From Enorma massiliensis phI (GTDB taxonomy: Bacteria > Actinomycetota > Coriobacteriia > Coriobacteriales > Coriobacteriaceae), in contig NZ_HE978575.1 in assembly GCF_000311845.1 (NCBI RefSeq), forward strand, positions 270,715 to 334,714: a stretch of 64,000 nucleotides of DNA, read 5' to 3'. This document shows positions 3,469-50,045 of the stretch, piece after piece (position 1 is the stretch's first letter; each line of letters opens with the position of its first letter). Position numbers and translations under genes: made by a program. The notes below the pieces were generated by a model. That model was not told where the DNA came from and searched no databases. It saw only the letters and a program-made list of their open reading frames with translations.

Positions 3469-4782
3469 ATGCAGGCACAGAAAGCAGAGGGCACCAAGGA
3501 CCTGATCGGGCGCGAGATGCGCGCATGGCAGCGCATGCAGCGTGTGGCTGCCGAGGTGTTCGGGCCGTACGGCTTCGAGCCGGTGGAGACGCCTGCCATC
3601 GAGCAGGTTGACGTGTTCGTGCACGGCATCGGGCAATCCACCGACGTGGTGCGCAAGGAGATGTTCCGCGTATTCTCGGGCGCCAACCTTGAGCGCGCGC
3701 TCGCGGAGGGCACGGATGCCAAGCTCAAGGCCAAGCAGCGCCTCGCTCTTCGTCCCGAGGGCACGGCCGGCGTGGTGCGCTCCGTGGTAGAGAACAACCT
3801 CGTGCCGCAGGGTGCCTCGCCCGTCAAGCTCTACTATGCCGAGGCGATGTTTCGCGGCGAGCGCCCGCAGAAGGGGCGCCTGCGCCAGTTCCACCAGGTA
3901 GGTATCGAATGGCTCGGCGCGCCCGATCCGGCGGCGGATGCCGAGTGCATCATCATGCTCATGGAGTTCTACCAGCGCCTGGGCTTCGACCTTTCCAAGC
4001 TGCGCCTGCTCATCAACTCGATGGGCGATCCGGCGTGCCGGCCTGCATACCGCGATAAGGTGCGTCAGTTCATCCTCGACCATGCGGACGATATGTGTGA
4101 CGAATGCCGCGAGCGCGCAGAGCTCAACCCGCTGCGCGCCTTCGATTGCAAGAACGACCATTGCCGCGAAATCATGAAAGACGCCCCGCTCATGCGCGAT
4201 GAGCTTTGCGACGAATGCCGCGGCCACTATGAGCAGGTTAAACGCTACCTCGATGCGGCGGGCATCGCCTATATCGAGGACCCGACCCTTGTGCGCGGTC
4301 TGGACTACTACACGCGCACGGTCTTCGAGGTGGAGGCGCCGGGTGCAGGCGTGGGTTCCATCGGCGGCGGCGGGCGCTACGACGGGCTCGTGGAGCTCGA
4401 GGGGGGCAAGCCGACCCCGGGCGTTGGCTTCGCGGTGGGCTTCGAGCGGGCAATGCTCGCACTCGAGGCGTTCGGCGTAGAGCTTGGCGACGAGCTCGAG
4501 CCCTGCGTGTACGTGGCGAACGCCGGCGACGAGCTTCGCGGTGAGGTGTTCGGCATCACCCATGAGCTGCGCAAGGCGGGCGTGCGAACCGAGGCGAACT
4601 ATCAGGGCCGCTCCCTCAAGAGCCAGTTCAAGCAGGCCGATAAGCTCGGCGTGCGCCTCATTGCGGTGGTGGGTGGCGATGAGCTTGCCCAGGGCGTCGT
4701 GCGCCTGCGCGACATGGCAACGCATGACGAAGCGCTCGTCGCGCGCGATGAGCTCGTTGAAGAGGTTCGTGCGCGCTTGTAG
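3469..4782 (+). CDS. hisS: Histidyl-tRNA synthetase
   Basis: A 437-residue class II synthetase charging tRNA-His with histidine. Visible are QKAEGTKDLIG at the N terminus, motif 2 (AMFRGERPQKGRLRQFHQ), the histidine-specific LVRGLDYYTRTVFE, and motif 3 in GGRYDGLVELEGG...GFAVGFER. The C-terminal anticodon-binding domain ends normally. An in-frame frame start at 3427 exists, but ATG 3469 has GGAAGG six bases upstream and fits the family N terminus. It has its own promoter; ppc follows in the same direction after a 169-bp gap. Confidence 0.97.
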   Translation: MQAQKAEGTKDLIGREMRAWQRMQRVAAEVFGPYGFEPVETPAIEQVDVFVHGIGQSTDVVRKEMFRVFSGANLERALAEGTDAKLKAKQRLALRPEGTAGVVRSVVENNLVPQGASPVKLYYAEAMFRGERPQKGRLRQFHQVGIEWLGAPDPAADAECIIMLMEFYQRLGFDLSKLRLLINSMGDPACRPAYRDKVRQFILDHADDMCDECRERAELNPLRAFDCKNDHCREIMKDAPLMRDELCDECRGHYEQVKRYLDAAGIAYIEDPTLVRGLDYYTRTVFEVEAPGAGVGSIGGGGRYDGLVELEGGKPTPGVGFAVGFERAMLALEAFGVELGDELEPCVYVANAGDELRGEVFGITHELRKAGVRTEANYQGRSLKSQFKQADKLGVRLIAVVGGDELAQGVVRLRDMATHDEALVARDELVEEVRARL

Positions 4783-25999: not shown

Positions 26000-26146
26000 G
26001 CAAAACTTGCCTCAAAGGATTGAATTTTGGGCTGAGGGTCAAGTAGCAGAAAATCGGGCGCCCTCGTGAGCTGGTGTTTCTTGCCACTGAGTAGGCAGTG
26101 TACTCAGGCTGTCCGCGAAAAAACGATCCTTTGACAGGAGTTTTGC
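26000..26146 (+). repeat. Family-2 147-bp inverted-ended element, copy 2
   Basis: The ends begin GCAAAACTTGCCTCAAAGGA (26000-) and finish with the imperfect complement (26118-26146), matching at 22 of 29 positions. Core landmarks are AAGTA at offset 41, GCCC at offset 60 and TACTC at offset 101, aligned with the copies at 33621, 43081 and 47869. There is no open frame. It sits directly upstream of the nuclease gene. Confidence 0.7.
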
Positions 26147-42317: not shown

Positions 42318-42350
42318 AATGATAAAACGAACCGGGTTCGTTTTATCATT
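42318..42350. terminator. Family-3 perfect palindrome between glnK and trmL (bidirectional terminator)
   Basis: AATGATAAAACGAACC (42318-42333) and its exact complement (42335-42350) surround one base. A-rich and T-rich flanks suit termination from both sides. The trmL stop codon lies inside it. A compensating relative is found at 46567. Confidence 0.85.
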
Positions 42351-43080: not shown

Positions 43081-43227
43081 GCAAAACTCTCGCCAAAGGA
43101 TCGAATTTTACGCGTACGTCCAAGTATCACGAAAGTGCGCAGGCCCTCTAGCTGGCATTCTTTCGAGCGCAATTGCGGCTGTACTCGGATGGTGGCCAAA
43201 AATTCGATCCTTTGGCGAGAGTTTTGC
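43081..43227 (+). repeat. Family-2 147-bp inverted-ended element, copy 1
   Basis: Perfect 29-bp ends (43081-43109 with 43199-43227), beginning GCAAAACTCTCGCCAAAGGA. The core has AAGTA at offset 41, GCCC at offset 62 and TACTC at offset 101. It lies in the divergent trmL/aldo-keto reductase region. No target-site duplication is evident. Confidence 0.8.
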
Positions 43228-43251
43228 GTCGCGGGGCCGCATTGGATGTCT

Positions 43252-43360
43252 TGAGGCTTGTTTTCCGGGCGAGTATGCGTCGCGCGCATAGCGGCATATC
43301 GGGGTAGACGGCGGTGTGCCGGCCTGCTGCGGACACAATGGTGGCGAAGCACAACGATGC
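43252..43360 (+). promoter_or_regulatory. Upstream region shared with the second aldo/keto reductase gene
   Basis: The stretch carries GGCTTGTTTTC, GCGAGTATGCG, ATAGCGGCATATCG, TAGACG and CACAATGG in order. All recur with small changes upstream of the reductase at 45582. ATAGCGGCATAT is partly palindromic and may be an operator. Confidence 0.55.
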
Positions 43361-43390
43361 CGTGCGAGCACGGCGGAAAGCGAGGCTACC

Positions 43391-44239
43391 ATGGAGTATC
43401 TGAAGCTTAACAACGATGTCAAAATGCCGGTCGAGGGCCTGGGCACCTTTCTTATGAGCCCGGCCGAGGCCGAGGCTGCGTCGCTCGCGGCACTTGAGGC
43501 CGGCTACGAGCATATCGATACTGCGAACGCCTACATGAACGAGAAGGCTGTGGGCCGCGCCATTGCCAAGAGCGGTGTTGTGCGCGATAAGCTTTTCGTT
43601 TCTACCAAGCTTTGGCCCTCGGTCTACGAGGCCGGCGACGCTGCCATCGAGGGCACGCTCAATCGCCTGGGCTTGGATTACGTTGACATGCTCATCCTCC
43701 ACCAGCCGGTGGGCAACTACCTCGCTGCATGGAAGACCATGGAGAAGGCCTATAAGGAGGGCAAGGTTCGCGCGCTCGGCCTTTCCAACTTCCCGCAGGG
43801 GAAGATTGCCGAGGTCATCGATCATGCGGAGATTAAGCCGCAGCTCGTGACGGTGGAGTGCCACCCGTACTTCGCCCAGTCGGACCTCCGTGAGTACCTG
43901 AGCCAGTACGGTATCGTGATTGAGGCTTGGTATCCGCTCGGCCATGGCGACAAGGGCCTGCAGGAGGAGCCGTTCTTCACCAAGCTTGCTGAGAAGTACG
44001 GCAAGACGCCGGCTCAGGTCATTCTACGCTGGCATGTGCAGATGGGTACGTCGATCATTCCGGGCTCCAAGAATCCCGCCCACATCGCAGATAACGCTGA
44101 CATCTTCGATTTCGAGCTCACTGACGAAGAGATGGCAGAGGTCGCCAAGCTCGACGGCACGAAGAAATTCTACGAGGCCACCGAGGAAGCGCTTGCTGGT
44201 TACCTCGCTATCAAGCCCGACTTCGACGCGCAGGAGTAG
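43391..44239 (+). CDS. Aldo/keto reductase
   Basis: A 282-residue NADPH-dependent reductase of the 2,5-diketo-gluconate reductase-like group. The catalytic tetrad is visible: Asp and Tyr in HIDTANAYMNEKAVG, Lys in VSTKLWPS, His in MLILHQP. GLSNFPQG and the NADPH-binding IIPGSKNPAHI complete it. ATG 43391 follows AAAGCGAGG. It resembles the reductase at 45582 and shares its upstream region. The natural substrate is unknown. Confidence 0.9.
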   Translation: MEYLKLNNDVKMPVEGLGTFLMSPAEAEAASLAALEAGYEHIDTANAYMNEKAVGRAIAKSGVVRDKLFVSTKLWPSVYEAGDAAIEGTLNRLGLDYVDMLILHQPVGNYLAAWKTMEKAYKEGKVRALGLSNFPQGKIAEVIDHAEIKPQLVTVECHPYFAQSDLREYLSQYGIVIEAWYPLGHGDKGLQEEPFFTKLAEKYGKTPAQVILRWHVQMGTSIIPGSKNPAHIADNADIFDFELTDEEMAEVAKLDGTKKFYEATEEALAGYLAIKPDFDAQE

Positions 44240-44569
44240 CGGGCTCCGGCGCTGCATGAGATGGCAGTGAGATTGTTGCCCCACGCTCGCTTTCGGTTTG
44301 CTCCGCATCCCGTTCGGATGCGCTTCGTATTTTGTTCCGAAGCGCGCCCCCGTGCTTTGCCTCATCCGGTATGAACCTGCAACCGTATCATTGCATTCTA
44401 AGAAATGGTTGCGGTATTTGAGCTGCGTCGTGCCGAGGTTCTGCCGTAGCGACCACGGTGACGTGCAAAGACGACGCACGGGTGGCGTAACTGATAATCC
44501 TCGCGGAAGACGGGGTAGAAGGCTCGTAAACTGGTGGTAATGACCAGCCTTTGTAAAGGAGCGAACTGT
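44240..44569. other. Gene-free spacer before the second PTS IIA gene
   Basis: Short hairpins are visible (GCATCC...GGATGC near 44306 and a GCAACC...GGTTGC dyad near 44380-44412), but no known RNA family or strong promoter was recognised. Confidence 0.45.
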
Positions 44570-45109
44570 ATGGGACTCTTCGATAAGTTCAAGAAGGCCG
44601 TTTCGGCTGAGCCTTCCGCCCCGGCCACGCCCGCTGCGATCACCGCGCAGGCTTCCGACTTCGCGCTGTGCGCCCCGGTTTCGGGGAAGGCCGTCAAAAT
44701 GGCCGACGTGCCCGATCCGGTCTTCAGCGGCGAGGTGCTCGGCAAGGGGTGCGCGATCTGGCCCGAGAACGACGTGGTGTATGCGCCCGTGTCTGGAGAA
44801 GTGACCGTGACCATGGGGCATGCGGTGGGCCTCAAGAGCGATAGCGGCGTCGAGGTTCTCGTGCATGTGGGCGTCGATACCGTGGACATGAAGGGCCGCG
44901 GCTTCACGGGCTATGTGAAGCAGGGCGACCACGTAAGCGCCGGCGACCCCATGATCAAGATCGATCGCAGCGAGATCGCCGCCGCTGGGCATCCTGATTG
45001 CGTGGTGCTTGCCGTGTCCAACACGGCTGAGTATGCCAGCGTGACCATGACTGCCGAGGCAGATGTGCACGTTGACGCGGGCGCCGCTGTCGTGGAGGTC
45101 GCGAAGTAG
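44570..45109 (+). CDS. Stand-alone glucose-type PTS IIA protein (second copy)
   Basis: A 179-residue EIIA-Glc domain preceded by a short Ala/Pro linker. It shows LCAPVSGKAVKMADVPDPVF, VYAPVSGEVTVTMGHAVGL with the first histidine, and EVLVHVGVDTVDM with the phosphorylated one. It parallels the protein at 12313 but differs in surface loops. AAAGGA lies nine bases before ATG 44570. No IIB or IIC gene is nearby, so the partner is elsewhere. Confidence 0.92.
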   Translation: MGLFDKFKKAVSAEPSAPATPAAITAQASDFALCAPVSGKAVKMADVPDPVFSGEVLGKGCAIWPENDVVYAPVSGEVTVTMGHAVGLKSDSGVEVLVHVGVDTVDMKGRGFTGYVKQGDHVSAGDPMIKIDRSEIAAAGHPDCVVLAVSNTAEYASVTMTAEADVHVDAGAAVVEVAK

Positions 45110-45140
45110 GCGTCTGCTCATACGTTACACAGTGTGTTTC

Positions 45141-45180
45141 GAACGGCGCTGCAGGTGAGTTGCCTGCAGCGCCGTTTTTT
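45141..45180 (+). terminator. Terminator after the second PTS IIA gene
   Basis: ACGGCGCTGCAGG (45143-45155) pairs with 45163-45175, followed by a run of T. Confidence 0.95.
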
Positions 45181-45251
45181 GCGCGAGGGAGGTGTGCTTG
45201 TGGGCCGGCGTGCTCCTACGATGTCGTCCTCTGCATAGACGGGTTCATAAA

Positions 45252-45331
45252 CTTGCCGAGTGCTCCGCATAATCTTGCCGAAGTTACGTGATTTGCGACA
45301 TTCGATAAGTTTTTGCGGAGCACTCGACAAG
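45252..45331. repeat. Long nested palindrome upstream of the second aldo/keto reductase
   Basis: CTTGCCGAGTGCTCCGCA (45252-45269) pairs with 45314-45331 at 17 of 18 positions. Inside, CTTGCCGAA near 45274 partly pairs with TTCGATAAG near 45301. No protein is encoded. Confidence 0.75.
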
Positions 45332-45423
45332 ATAGTGAGCGGTATTGCGGAGAGGTCCCCATAGAAGACGAGATAATCATCGTCTGCTTGTTTTTGAGCC
45401 CTCCTCTGATGAAGGACCTTCTG

Positions 45424-45530
45424 GGCTGTTTTCGCATTGCGCCGAGCATGCATCTGGCGTATAGCGGCATATCGTCATAGACGCGGGAATAGCCGTGGCA
45501 TGCGAGCACAATGGAGCCAAGCACAAGCCA
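45424..45530 (+). promoter_or_regulatory. Upstream region shared with the first aldo/keto reductase gene
   Basis: This is the counterpart of 43252-43360: GGCTGTTTTCG, GCCGAGCATGC, TATAGCGGCATATCG, ATAGACGCGGG and CACAATGGAG in the same order. Common regulation of the two reductases is the simplest explanation. Confidence 0.55.
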
Positions 45531-45581
45531 TGCACTCGCGGCGCCACGGGTTACGGCGCGGGAGGCACAAAGGAGGTTCCC

Positions 45582-46445
45582 ATGGAGTACAAGACCCTTT
45601 CCAACGGTGTGAAGATGCCCATGCTCGGCTACGGCGTGTTCCAGATCGACGACGCTACCACCGAGCGCTGCGTTGCGGACGCCATCGCGAGCGGTTACCG
45701 CATGATCGACACAGCTCAGGCGTATGGCAACGAGCGCGGCGTGGGCGCCGGCATCAAGGCGAGCGGCGTTGCGCGCGACGAGCTCTTCATCGTGAGCAAG
45801 GTGTGGGTTTCCAACTACGGCGAGGGCAAGACCTACGACTCCATCAAGCAGTCGCTCGAGCTCCTTGGCGTGGATCAGATCGACCTTATGCTCCTGCACC
45901 AGGCCTACAACGATTACCATGCGGCGTGGCGCGACATGGAGCGTGCGTACAAGGACGGCCTCGTCCGCGCGATCGGCATTTCCAACTTCGATCCCACGCG
46001 CCTGCTCGACATCTGCACGTTCGCCGGGGTAGCGCCGATGGTCAACCAGGTCGAGACCCATGTGTTCTGGCAGCAGCATTACGCGCATGAGAACATGGAG
46101 AACCTCGGCGTAGCGCACATGGCGTGGGGTCCGTTCGCCGAGGGCGCCAACAACTTCTTCCAGAACCCGCTGCTCTCCGAGATTGGCGAGAAGTACGGCA
46201 AGTCTGTGGGCCAGGTGGCGCTGCGCTACCTCCTCGACCTCGGCGTCATCGTGATTCCCAAGTCTACGCACAAGGAGCGCATGGAAGAGAACTTCGACGT
46301 GTTCGACTTTCAGCTTTCCGACGAGGATAAGGCGAAGATTGCCGAGCTCGATTGCGACCGCTCGATTTGCTATGACCATCGCGACGTGCAGCTTATCGGC
46401 GGCCTGCTGAATCTTGTGAAGGGGCAGATTGCCGCGCAGGCGTAG
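45582..46445 (+). CDS. Aldo/keto reductase
   Basis: A 287-residue NADPH-dependent reductase. The tetrad residues are in MIDTAQAYGNERGVG (Asp, Tyr), FIVSKVWVS (Lys) and LMLLHQAYND (His). GISNFDPTRL and the cofactor motif VIPKSTHKERM are standard. AGGAGG lies six bases before ATG 45582, an optimal site. It is convergent with the LysR gene. Confidence 0.92.
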   Translation: MEYKTLSNGVKMPMLGYGVFQIDDATTERCVADAIASGYRMIDTAQAYGNERGVGAGIKASGVARDELFIVSKVWVSNYGEGKTYDSIKQSLELLGVDQIDLMLLHQAYNDYHAAWRDMERAYKDGLVRAIGISNFDPTRLLDICTFAGVAPMVNQVETHVFWQQHYAHENMENLGVAHMAWGPFAEGANNFFQNPLLSEIGEKYGKSVGQVALRYLLDLGVIVIPKSTHKERMEENFDVFDFQLSDEDKAKIAELDCDRSICYDHRDVQLIGGLLNLVKGQIAAQA

Positions 46446-46543: not shown

Positions 46544-46566
46544 AGTGCGGGAATAGGCCGATCGAA

Positions 46567-46614
46567 AATGATAAAACTAACCCGGTTAGTTGTATCACCC
46601 GGTTAGTTGTATCG
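46567..46614. repeat. Family-3 palindrome with a duplicated right arm
   Basis: AATGATAAAACTAACC (46567-46582) pairs with GGTTAGTTGTATCA (46584-46597) except for one base. The right arm is repeated as GGTTAGTTGTATCG (46601-46614). Compared with 42318, the G/C pair is replaced by T/A on both arms, so pairing is kept. Confidence 0.7.
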
Positions 46615-46725: not shown

Positions 46726-47568
46726 CTACCGCCTAACCGCCTCGACGATATCCAGCACGGCCTGCGGCGCGTCGATCATGGCGACCACGTAGAACGTGGC
46801 GTGCGCGTCGGCGTCTTGGATGGGCACGCGCACGCGGTTCTCGTCGGGGTGGTTGAACTCGGATACGTCGGTGACAAAGCCCAGCACATCCGACGTGCGA
46901 ATCAGCTGTGCGAGCACGTTGGAATCCTGCTGCATGATGATTCGCGCGTTGGGCAGTGCCGCGCGCGTCATGTCGCCCCAGAAGCCGACGTCGGCGTTCA
47001 TGAGGAAGGTGCGCCCGTCGAGGTCCGCGAGCCTGACGCTCGTCTGCTGCGCGATGGGGTCCGTTGCCGGTGCGTAGATGAAGAGGTTCTCGACCATGAA
47101 CGGCACGCAGACCACGTTGGGCAGGCCGATGGGCCGCCGCGTGATTGCAAGGTCGGCCGAGCGGTCGAAGAGCCTTCTCTCGACTTCTTGCTCGTCATCG
47201 ATGGTTTCCGAGGTGAGCATGGTGCCCGGAAAGCGCTCGGTTACGCGTGAGGCGAGCCTCCAGACCGGTGCCGGTGCGACGGACGCGACGTTGAGCGTGC
47301 GGTTGGTTCGGGTAAGGTCGTCGAACGCATCGCGCATGCGGCGCTCCTCCGCCAAGATGGCGCGCGCGTGCTTGAGGGCGAGTTCGCCGGCCTCGTTGAG
47401 TTCAACATGGTTGCGCGATCGGTTGAAGAGCTCGCAGCCCAGCTCGCGCTCGAGCGCGCGCATGGATCGGCTCACCGATGGCTGCGAGGTGTGAAGCGCT
47501 TCGGCAGCGGCGGAGAAGGTGCCGGTGCGGGCGATGGCGTCTATTTGGCGAAGCTGTTCGAATTCCAC
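46726..47568 (-). CDS. LysR-family transcriptional regulator
   Basis: A 280-residue regulator. The N-terminal winged helix reads FEQLRQIDAIARTGTFSAAA, then LHTSQPSVSRSMRALERELG and LFNRSRNHVELNEAGEL. The effector-binding domain is full length (VASVAPAPVWRLAS... to VLDIVEAVRR). A GTG start at 47568 has AAAGG upstream and gives the canonical N terminus; the ATG further up does not. It is convergent with the reductase at 45582; its target is unknown but the redox genes on either side are candidates. Confidence 0.9.
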   Translation of the reverse strand: MEFEQLRQIDAIARTGTFSAAAEALHTSQPSVSRSMRALERELGCELFNRSRNHVELNEAGELALKHARAILAEERRMRDAFDDLTRTNRTLNVASVAPAPVWRLASRVTERFPGTMLTSETIDDEQEVERRLFDRSADLAITRRPIGLPNVVCVPFMVENLFIYAPATDPIAQQTSVRLADLDGRTFLMNADVGFWGDMTRAALPNARIIMQQDSNVLAQLIRTSDVLGFVTDVSEFNHPDENRVRVPIQDADAHATFYVVAMIDAPQAVLDIVEAVRR

Positions 47569-47868
47569 AGCGAGACCTTTCACGAGGCGCGTGCAACTGC
47601 TACACATTCTGCAACTATTCCCGCTGGATCACTGGGTTATGCAGCGAGAGAATAGAGGCGATAGGCGGCAATGCGATGCGGTGCGGCGCGGCAGCGCGAT
47701 GCGGGTGGCGGCAGCGCGGCGTGACGGCGGTGCGGCGGCAGCGCGGCGGAATGTTTTTGCACGCTGCGGTTCGTCTCCGTTGAGTGTTTTGAGCTGCCGG
47801 TCTGTCGTATTTGGGACAGGCTTGCGGCACTTTTGCATAGATTTGCTGTCGAATGGAGCTACCATAAA

Positions 47869-48013
47869 CAAAAGTCCGGCCAAAGGATCGGATTTTCACC
47901 TACCCCTGAAGTAGACCGTTTTTACGCGAGCCCGTGAGCAGGCATTTTATGGCGGGCTGCTCTCTGTATACATAGGGGTATCCCGAAAATCCGATCCTTT
48001 GGCGGGAGTTTTG
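47869..48013 (+). repeat. Family-2 145-bp inverted-ended element, copy 3
   Basis: The ends (47869-47897 with 47985-48013) match at 26 of 29 positions and share CCAAAGGATCG with copies 1 and 2. The core has AAGTA at offset 40, GCCC at offset 61 and TACAT at offset 100. The rest of the 47569-48223 gap holds a GCGGCAGCGCG-type low-complexity tract (47680-47750) and nothing else recognisable. Confidence 0.75.
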
Positions 48014-49681: not shown

Positions 49682-50045
49682 CCGCATTGTGGGGCATCGG
49701 GTGCACGTTGTCATCATCGGGAAAGAAAAACGAGACCAATGAATGGCTATCGGGGAAGGCATTGCGGCAGGAATGCGTTCGGTCATACCGTATTCCCGCG
49801 AAACCCTGCGCTGGCCTACTGTTCGTGCGATTCGTGGTTTGCGTGTTATCACAACGCACTATTCACAGCGGACCCGTCAGCTGTTGTCCGCACCAGCATC
49901 TATACTTACATTTAGAGGGACATGCGAAGCAGCAGCGACCGCGTGCCGTCGCCCATGCGTTATCGGCGCCGGTGTTTGTGCTGGTAGCGCTGCTTGCGGC
50001 AGGCATGGATGTCGCCGTCTGCTTCGTCAACAAGGGGAGGGCATC

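Follow-up and report, generated by a model that had tools for sequence, protein, structure and literature searches.

Gene content of the locus

The window, the whole stretch of 64,000 nucleotides of Enorma massiliensis phI analysed here, contains two aldo/keto reductase genes (AKR1 and AKR2) that flank a PTS EIIA gene, followed by a LysR-type regulator gene. Each reductase gene is preceded by an upstream block in which the same short motifs recur, together with a predicted box for a LysR-type transcriptional regulator (LTTR). The features are, in window coordinates:

43274..43290, + strand: predicted LTTR box of AKR1, TATGC-GTCGCGC-GCATA, a perfect inverted repeat
43286..43301, + strand: right half-site and third half-site as an 8-bp direct repeat, GCATAGCG-GCATATCG, read from the sequence
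43288-43300 and 45461-45473: ATAGCGGCATATC, a 13-mer singled out by the first-pass annotation
43305-43310 and 45478-45483: TAGACG, close to the -35 place in the window blocks
43334..43339, + strand: putative -10 CACAAT of AKR1, 43 nt after the box
43334-43341 and 45507-45514: CACAATGG
43347-43354 and 45519-45526: AAGCACAA
43391..44239, + strand: AKR1, aldo/keto reductase (PF00248, E 1e-51)
44570..45109, + strand: PTS EIIA gene between the two reductases; best upstream box match with 3 mismatches
45447..45463, + strand: degenerate predicted LTTR box of AKR2, CATGC-ATCTGGC-GTATA, 2/10 mismatches
45507..45512, + strand: putative -10 CACAAT of AKR2, 43 nt after the box
45582..46445, + strand: AKR2, aldo/keto reductase (PF00248, E 3.5e-47)
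46726-47568, - strand: LysR-type regulator (HTH_1 and LysR_substrate), the proposed regulator; GTG start at 47568 from alignment with relatives
47638..47654, - strand: possible autoregulatory box TATTCTCTCGCTGCATA, 1 mismatch, 69 nt upstream of the LysR start

The frame at 46729-47607 on the reverse strand encodes the domains HTH_1 (5.6e-22) and LysR_substrate (3.5e-16). The regulator gene is convergent with AKR2 and does not show the classical divergent layout. The PTS EIIA gene has no match at 1e-15 in any of the 20 relatives' loci examined. Both reductases resemble DkgA/DkgB- and YvgN-like enzymes, with 1vp5 (2,5-diketo-D-gluconic acid reductase), 4mhb and 3d3f (YvgN) among their best PDB matches and DkgA as the top NCBIfam model. 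They differ in scoring below the curated cut-offs, with 238.8 and 231.2 bits for DkgA (cut-off 425) and 160.4 and 177.2 bits for DkgB (cut-off 327) for the two proteins. A DkgA/DkgB substrate assignment was rejected because these scores lie far under the cut-offs. Hence, a carbonyl or redox signal for regulation is plausible by enzyme class only. In the surroundings of the cluster, a 16-nt perfect inverted repeat (AATGATAAAACGAACC / GGTTCGTTTTATCATT, 42318-42350) lies between a P-II-like gene, judged by eye, and a SpoU gene. A related sequence follows AKR2 at 46565-46613, where ACCCGGTTAGTTGTATC occurs twice in tandem.

Conservation of the upstream block

Over 300 nt upstream of the two reductases, the best local alignment joins 43250-43375 to 45418-45543 with 89 of 119 aligned bases identical. 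The alignment score of 80 exceeds every one of 2000 dinucleotide shuffles (mean 23.5, sd 4.1, maximum 45), in agreement with the conserved region that the first-pass annotation had described upstream of both genes. The motifs quoted there were located in one order in both blocks. The coding regions have indeed diverged more than the upstream motif, as had been claimed, with identity at 112 of 283 aligned residues in the proteins and at 136 of 283 third codon positions in the genes. Similarity is thus higher upstream than within the genes. A very recent segmental duplication of AKR1 and AKR2, which had been named as the observation that would overturn the annotation, is ruled out by the divergence of the genes and by separate orthologues of both in another genus (locus L035, 88% and 93%).

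The exact 13-mer ATAGCGGCATATC occurs twice in the 2.28 Mb genome, both times in these blocks, and a whole-genome search for ATAGCGGCATATC-N4-TAGACG with up to three mismatches recovered the same two places only. Combined with TAGACG and with up to two mismatches, the motif was found in no genome but its own among five genomes of the genus. As a 13-mer near reductases, with up to two mismatches, it was found in two other genomes (loci L029 and L007) among 34 loci. On these results the motif was dropped as a search key.

An inverted repeat upstream of both reductases

The 13-mer consists of the right half of an inverted repeat, the AKR1 box, plus a third half-site. The AKR1 dyad contains T-N11-A. 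The genome has only one further perfect match, at C1:1037197, which long open frames on both strands overlap in a crude test. A third half-site resembling that of AKR1, GCATAGYGRCATG, is found upstream of A1 in Enorma (L152) and in Collinsella sp. An7 (L161). The AKR2 box differs at positions 1 and 14 of 17 and keeps the T and A of T-N11-A. Alone, the AKR2 box is not significant, as 25 window sites are equal or better versus 17.7 expected, a number reached by 7 of 100 shuffles. It gains support from its place in a homologous block and from boxes that precede AKR2-like genes in relatives. The 43-nt spacing to CACAAT also occurs in loci L159 and L160. Autoregulation of the LysR gene via 47638-47654 is possible, where the chance level for a box with up to one mismatch is 67 in 3000 random 300-nt window stretches.

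Genome-wide, 47 sites match the box with up to one mismatch versus 33 for the reversed pattern. Apart from the site upstream of the LysR gene, 46 of these were examined further. Exact CACAAT at 41-47 nt was found for the AKR1 site and for one other site only (L124, C1:837049, reverse direction, 42 nt). Open frames of at least 500 nt cover 40 of the 46 sites, a crude test because the AKR1 site is itself covered by such a frame. We claim no further targets of a wider regulon. Upstream of the EIIA gene, a nitroreductase gene and an Fe-S aldo/keto reductase gene at 50043, no box is better than 3, 4 and 4 mismatches, respectively.

Distribution of the box and the regulator

Among 65 genomes of the family, AKR1 has matches in 61, many of them weak, and the LysR-type regulator has a homologue (E up to 1e-20) in 20. 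All 20 regulator-bearing genomes carry a box with up to one mismatch upstream of a reductase adjoining the regulator. Sixteen of these were recognized by direct family comparison, and G006, G038, G044 and G059 via loci L223, L213, L222 and L214. From the 45 genomes without the regulator, 10 were checked, each with an AKR match (five at 48-89% identity, five at 39-41%), and one of the 10, G045, has the box. No repeat with up to one mismatch was found in G034, G042, G008 and G051 (AKR1 at 48-83% identity), G051 having one repeat with two mismatches. There was likewise no box in G033, G060, G025, G004 and G002, with reductases at 39-41%. The Fisher test gives 7e-7 for 20/20 versus 1/10 and 4e-4 against the five closer cases (1/5), both values ignoring relatedness. 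G045 has a perfect box and no regulator detected at 1e-20. Its AKR1 match (L040, 6287 onwards) reaches 89% identity over about 161 residues and then departs from the family. Within the window's genus, no homologue of the regulator (E up to 1e-20) was found in the four other genomes.

A scan with the regulator alignment confirmed at least 525 loci, of which the best 80 were analysed. These 80 overlap the family genomes and stem from Enorma, Collinsella, Olsenella, Thermophilibacter, Atopobiaceae, Eggerthellaceae, Actinomyces and some Firmicutes. Reductase upstreams were counted at 40% identity or more, with the start present and no more than 4.5 kb from the regulator, which gave 84 upstreams from 56 loci. 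A box with up to one mismatch within 300 nt precedes 50 of the 84 reductases and is present in 43 of the 56 loci among these best 80. For comparison, where the locus gave no reductase hit, the box stands upstream of 3 of 24 regulators (Fisher test for 50/84 versus 3/24, 5e-5, relatedness ignored). Nine spacers were tried in the best 80 loci, and enrichment was found at 7 only. Spacers of 3, 4, 5, 6, 8, 9, 10 and 11 gave 1, 1, 2, 0, 0, 2, 0 and 3 of the 84 reductase upstreams and 0 to 2 of the 24 regulator upstreams, and two rearranged patterns at spacer 7 gave 0/84 and 1/84. Gene order varies among the loci (divergent, convergent or with the regulator flanked by two reductases), and the boxes remain upstream of the reductases.

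The 34 of 84 reductase upstreams lacking a box within 300 nt in the best 80 loci include 14 second genes behind a boxed reductase and 11 cases outside Coriobacteriia (Actinomyces, Pseudopropionibacterium, Firmicutes). The nine true misses are AKR2 of L157, L166, L170 and L202, AKR1 of L168 and L172, the more distant AKR2 of L181 and both reductases of L225. In L170, a perfect repeat lies at 439 nt, beyond the 300-nt limit. A locus of Eggerthellaceae (L197) carries a regulator homologue without a reductase hit and two perfect TATGC-N7-GCATA boxes at 4363 and 7319, one of them just before the regulator, which may act on another gene there.

Promoter geometry in relatives

Promoter layout was compared in 46 boxed upstreams, which are the 50 above minus one with a short segment and three identical to another over 40 nt; the window copies were excluded. 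Selection of the sites accounts in part for the conservation of the box columns, and the -35 and -10 columns played no part in that selection. In 31 of the 46, GCATT follows the box at a distance of exactly 16 nt. At a fixed distance, the -10 hexamer has A at the second and T at the sixth position in 91% each. Exact CACWAT, TATAGT, TATACT or TAATAT occur 15 times at 43 to 46 nt after the box and once elsewhere in the segment. The commonest layout in relatives is TATGC-N7-GCATA, 16 nt, GCATTGTAC, 18 nt and the -10 element. Given a start 7 nt after the -10 element, we infer the box centre to lie at about -64. The GCATTGTAC element is not recognizable in the window blocks, where GACGGCGGT and GACGCGGGA occupy its place.

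A dispersed element beside the cluster

A 145-bp element whose arms are 28-bp inverted repeats (CAAAACTCNCGCCAAAGGATCGRATTTT) is dispersed in the genome and lies at 43082-43226, 47869-48013 and about 26001-26145 of the window. The 2.28 Mb genome holds 14 arm pairs at an offset of 106-107 bp, and the interior of the element is variable in sequence and almost constant in length. Fourteen copies were aligned, 13 from those pairs and one whose second arm is weaker. In these, the two arms have changed jointly at 8 of 28 pairs and on one side only at 3. Little of the interior is conserved except AGTA/TACT and an ACCTGC-like core, and 13 of the 14 copies lie between genes by a crude ORF test. With up to one mismatch, 297 genomes of the order yielded only a single paired copy, which is in G045, and solitary arms in three other genomes. 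G045, the genome with a perfect box and no detected regulator, thus carries the only paired copy found outside. No exact match was found in viral contigs. The element could be a miniature mobile element or else serve as a site of recombination.

Proposed regulation by a LysR-type regulator

Each of the two blocks very likely represents an operator-promoter of the LTTR class. According to PMC8407307, LTTR recognition sites have the form T-N11-A and are frequently located near -65, and the activation site is at -35/-10; recognition and activation sites are also described in PMC11739112. The window shares with such operators an inverted repeat with T-N11-A and a LysR-family regulator in the cluster, with putative promoter elements downstream of the repeat; a box centre near -64, as reckoned from the -10-like element, would fit as well. 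It differs in the convergent orientation of the regulator and AKR2, in having two operator copies and near -35, where the GCATT element of relatives (31/46) and thus their -35/activation element is not recognizable. The operator class is well known, and the locus presents an operator-promoter of a known kind in two copies before two reductases. An open-access literature search found no description of this particular operator. The promoter and operator proposed by the first-pass annotation are hence well supported, with the correction that the operator core is TATGC-N7-GCATA and that the motif highlighted at first covers only half of it plus the third half-site. A second difference concerns the regulator, for which the evidence points to the LysR-type class and a gene within the cluster.

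The LysR gene at 46726-47568 on the reverse strand is likely the regulator of the blocks, and the two reductases are probably controlled together. The regulator would bind TATGC-N7-GCATA as a high-affinity recognition site centred near -64 and touch a second, weaker activation region towards -35, in the window lineage perhaps the third half-site GCATATC. Binding of an effector would then let RNA polymerase fire from the -10 element CACAAT. This would place AKR1 and AKR2, which flank the PTS EIIA gene, under common control, and the regulator might also control itself via 47638-47654.

Copying of the promoter stretch and other explanations

The likeness of the two blocks could also be residual, with a recent gene conversion or promoter duplication that left little time for divergence. 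We consider this explanation a substantial possibility, if somewhat short of probable. The window A1 and A2 upstreams (300 nt) score 80 against each other, and lower against those of orthologues, with 47 for A1 and Enorma A1, 27 for A2 and Enorma A2 and 33 for A2 and L153 A2. Of the 13 relatives' upstreams compared, L161 A1 comes closest to A1 (score 53) and Enorma A1 closest to A2 (score 59). Elsewhere, pairs of reductase upstreams within a genome score 28 (L152), 56 (L157) and 56 (L158). Furthermore, both window upstreams contain AAGCACAA, which is absent from all 13 upstreams of relatives. Since the window blocks are closer to each other than to those of their orthologues, recent copying of the promoter stretch probably contributes. 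However, the AKR1 and AKR2 genes were not recently duplicated, and residual similarity would explain neither the box nor its fixed spacing, nor why it precedes reductases in 43 of 56 loci. Copying thus adds to the operator explanation rather than replacing it, and the confidence in one overlaps with the confidence in the other.

A recent copy event in the window lineage probably explains the matches beyond the box, and function keeps the box. Selection, as suggested by the first-pass annotation, probably does not account alone for the similarity outside the box.

The blocks might instead be operators of another regulator, such as an unlinked redox or carbonyl sensor, with the LysR gene being incidental. 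Palindromes suit many dimeric regulators, and G045 has the box with no regulator homologue at E up to 1e-20. Such a regulator is nevertheless improbable given that box and LysR-type regulator occur together in 20 of 20 regulator-bearing family genomes, and that the T-N11-A core and the inferred centre at -64 fit the LTTR class. A structured RNA leader or attenuator, as an inverted repeat upstream of genes may suggest, is highly improbable, because the box sits 5' of the -10-like element at a fixed distance and would not be transcribed from that promoter; Rfam has no family at the block, and its two window hits, both at 45078-45178, stay below the gathering score.

For the LTTR operator-promoter favored here, the proposed set of regulator, operator and targets is found in Coriobacteriaceae and Atopobiaceae, and it comes with a defined motif by which it can be recognized in draft genomes. 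We tentatively suggest that, in the window lineage, a copy of one reductase's operator-promoter stretch took the place of the other's, a form of concerted evolution at the promoter level. The ancestral -35/activation element would have given way to the third half-site 8 bp from the box. The locus might serve as a small example from nature of diverged paralogues between which a promoter was probably copied. If true, promoter copying would keep a single regulator in control of two enzymes that are 40% identical and physically separated.
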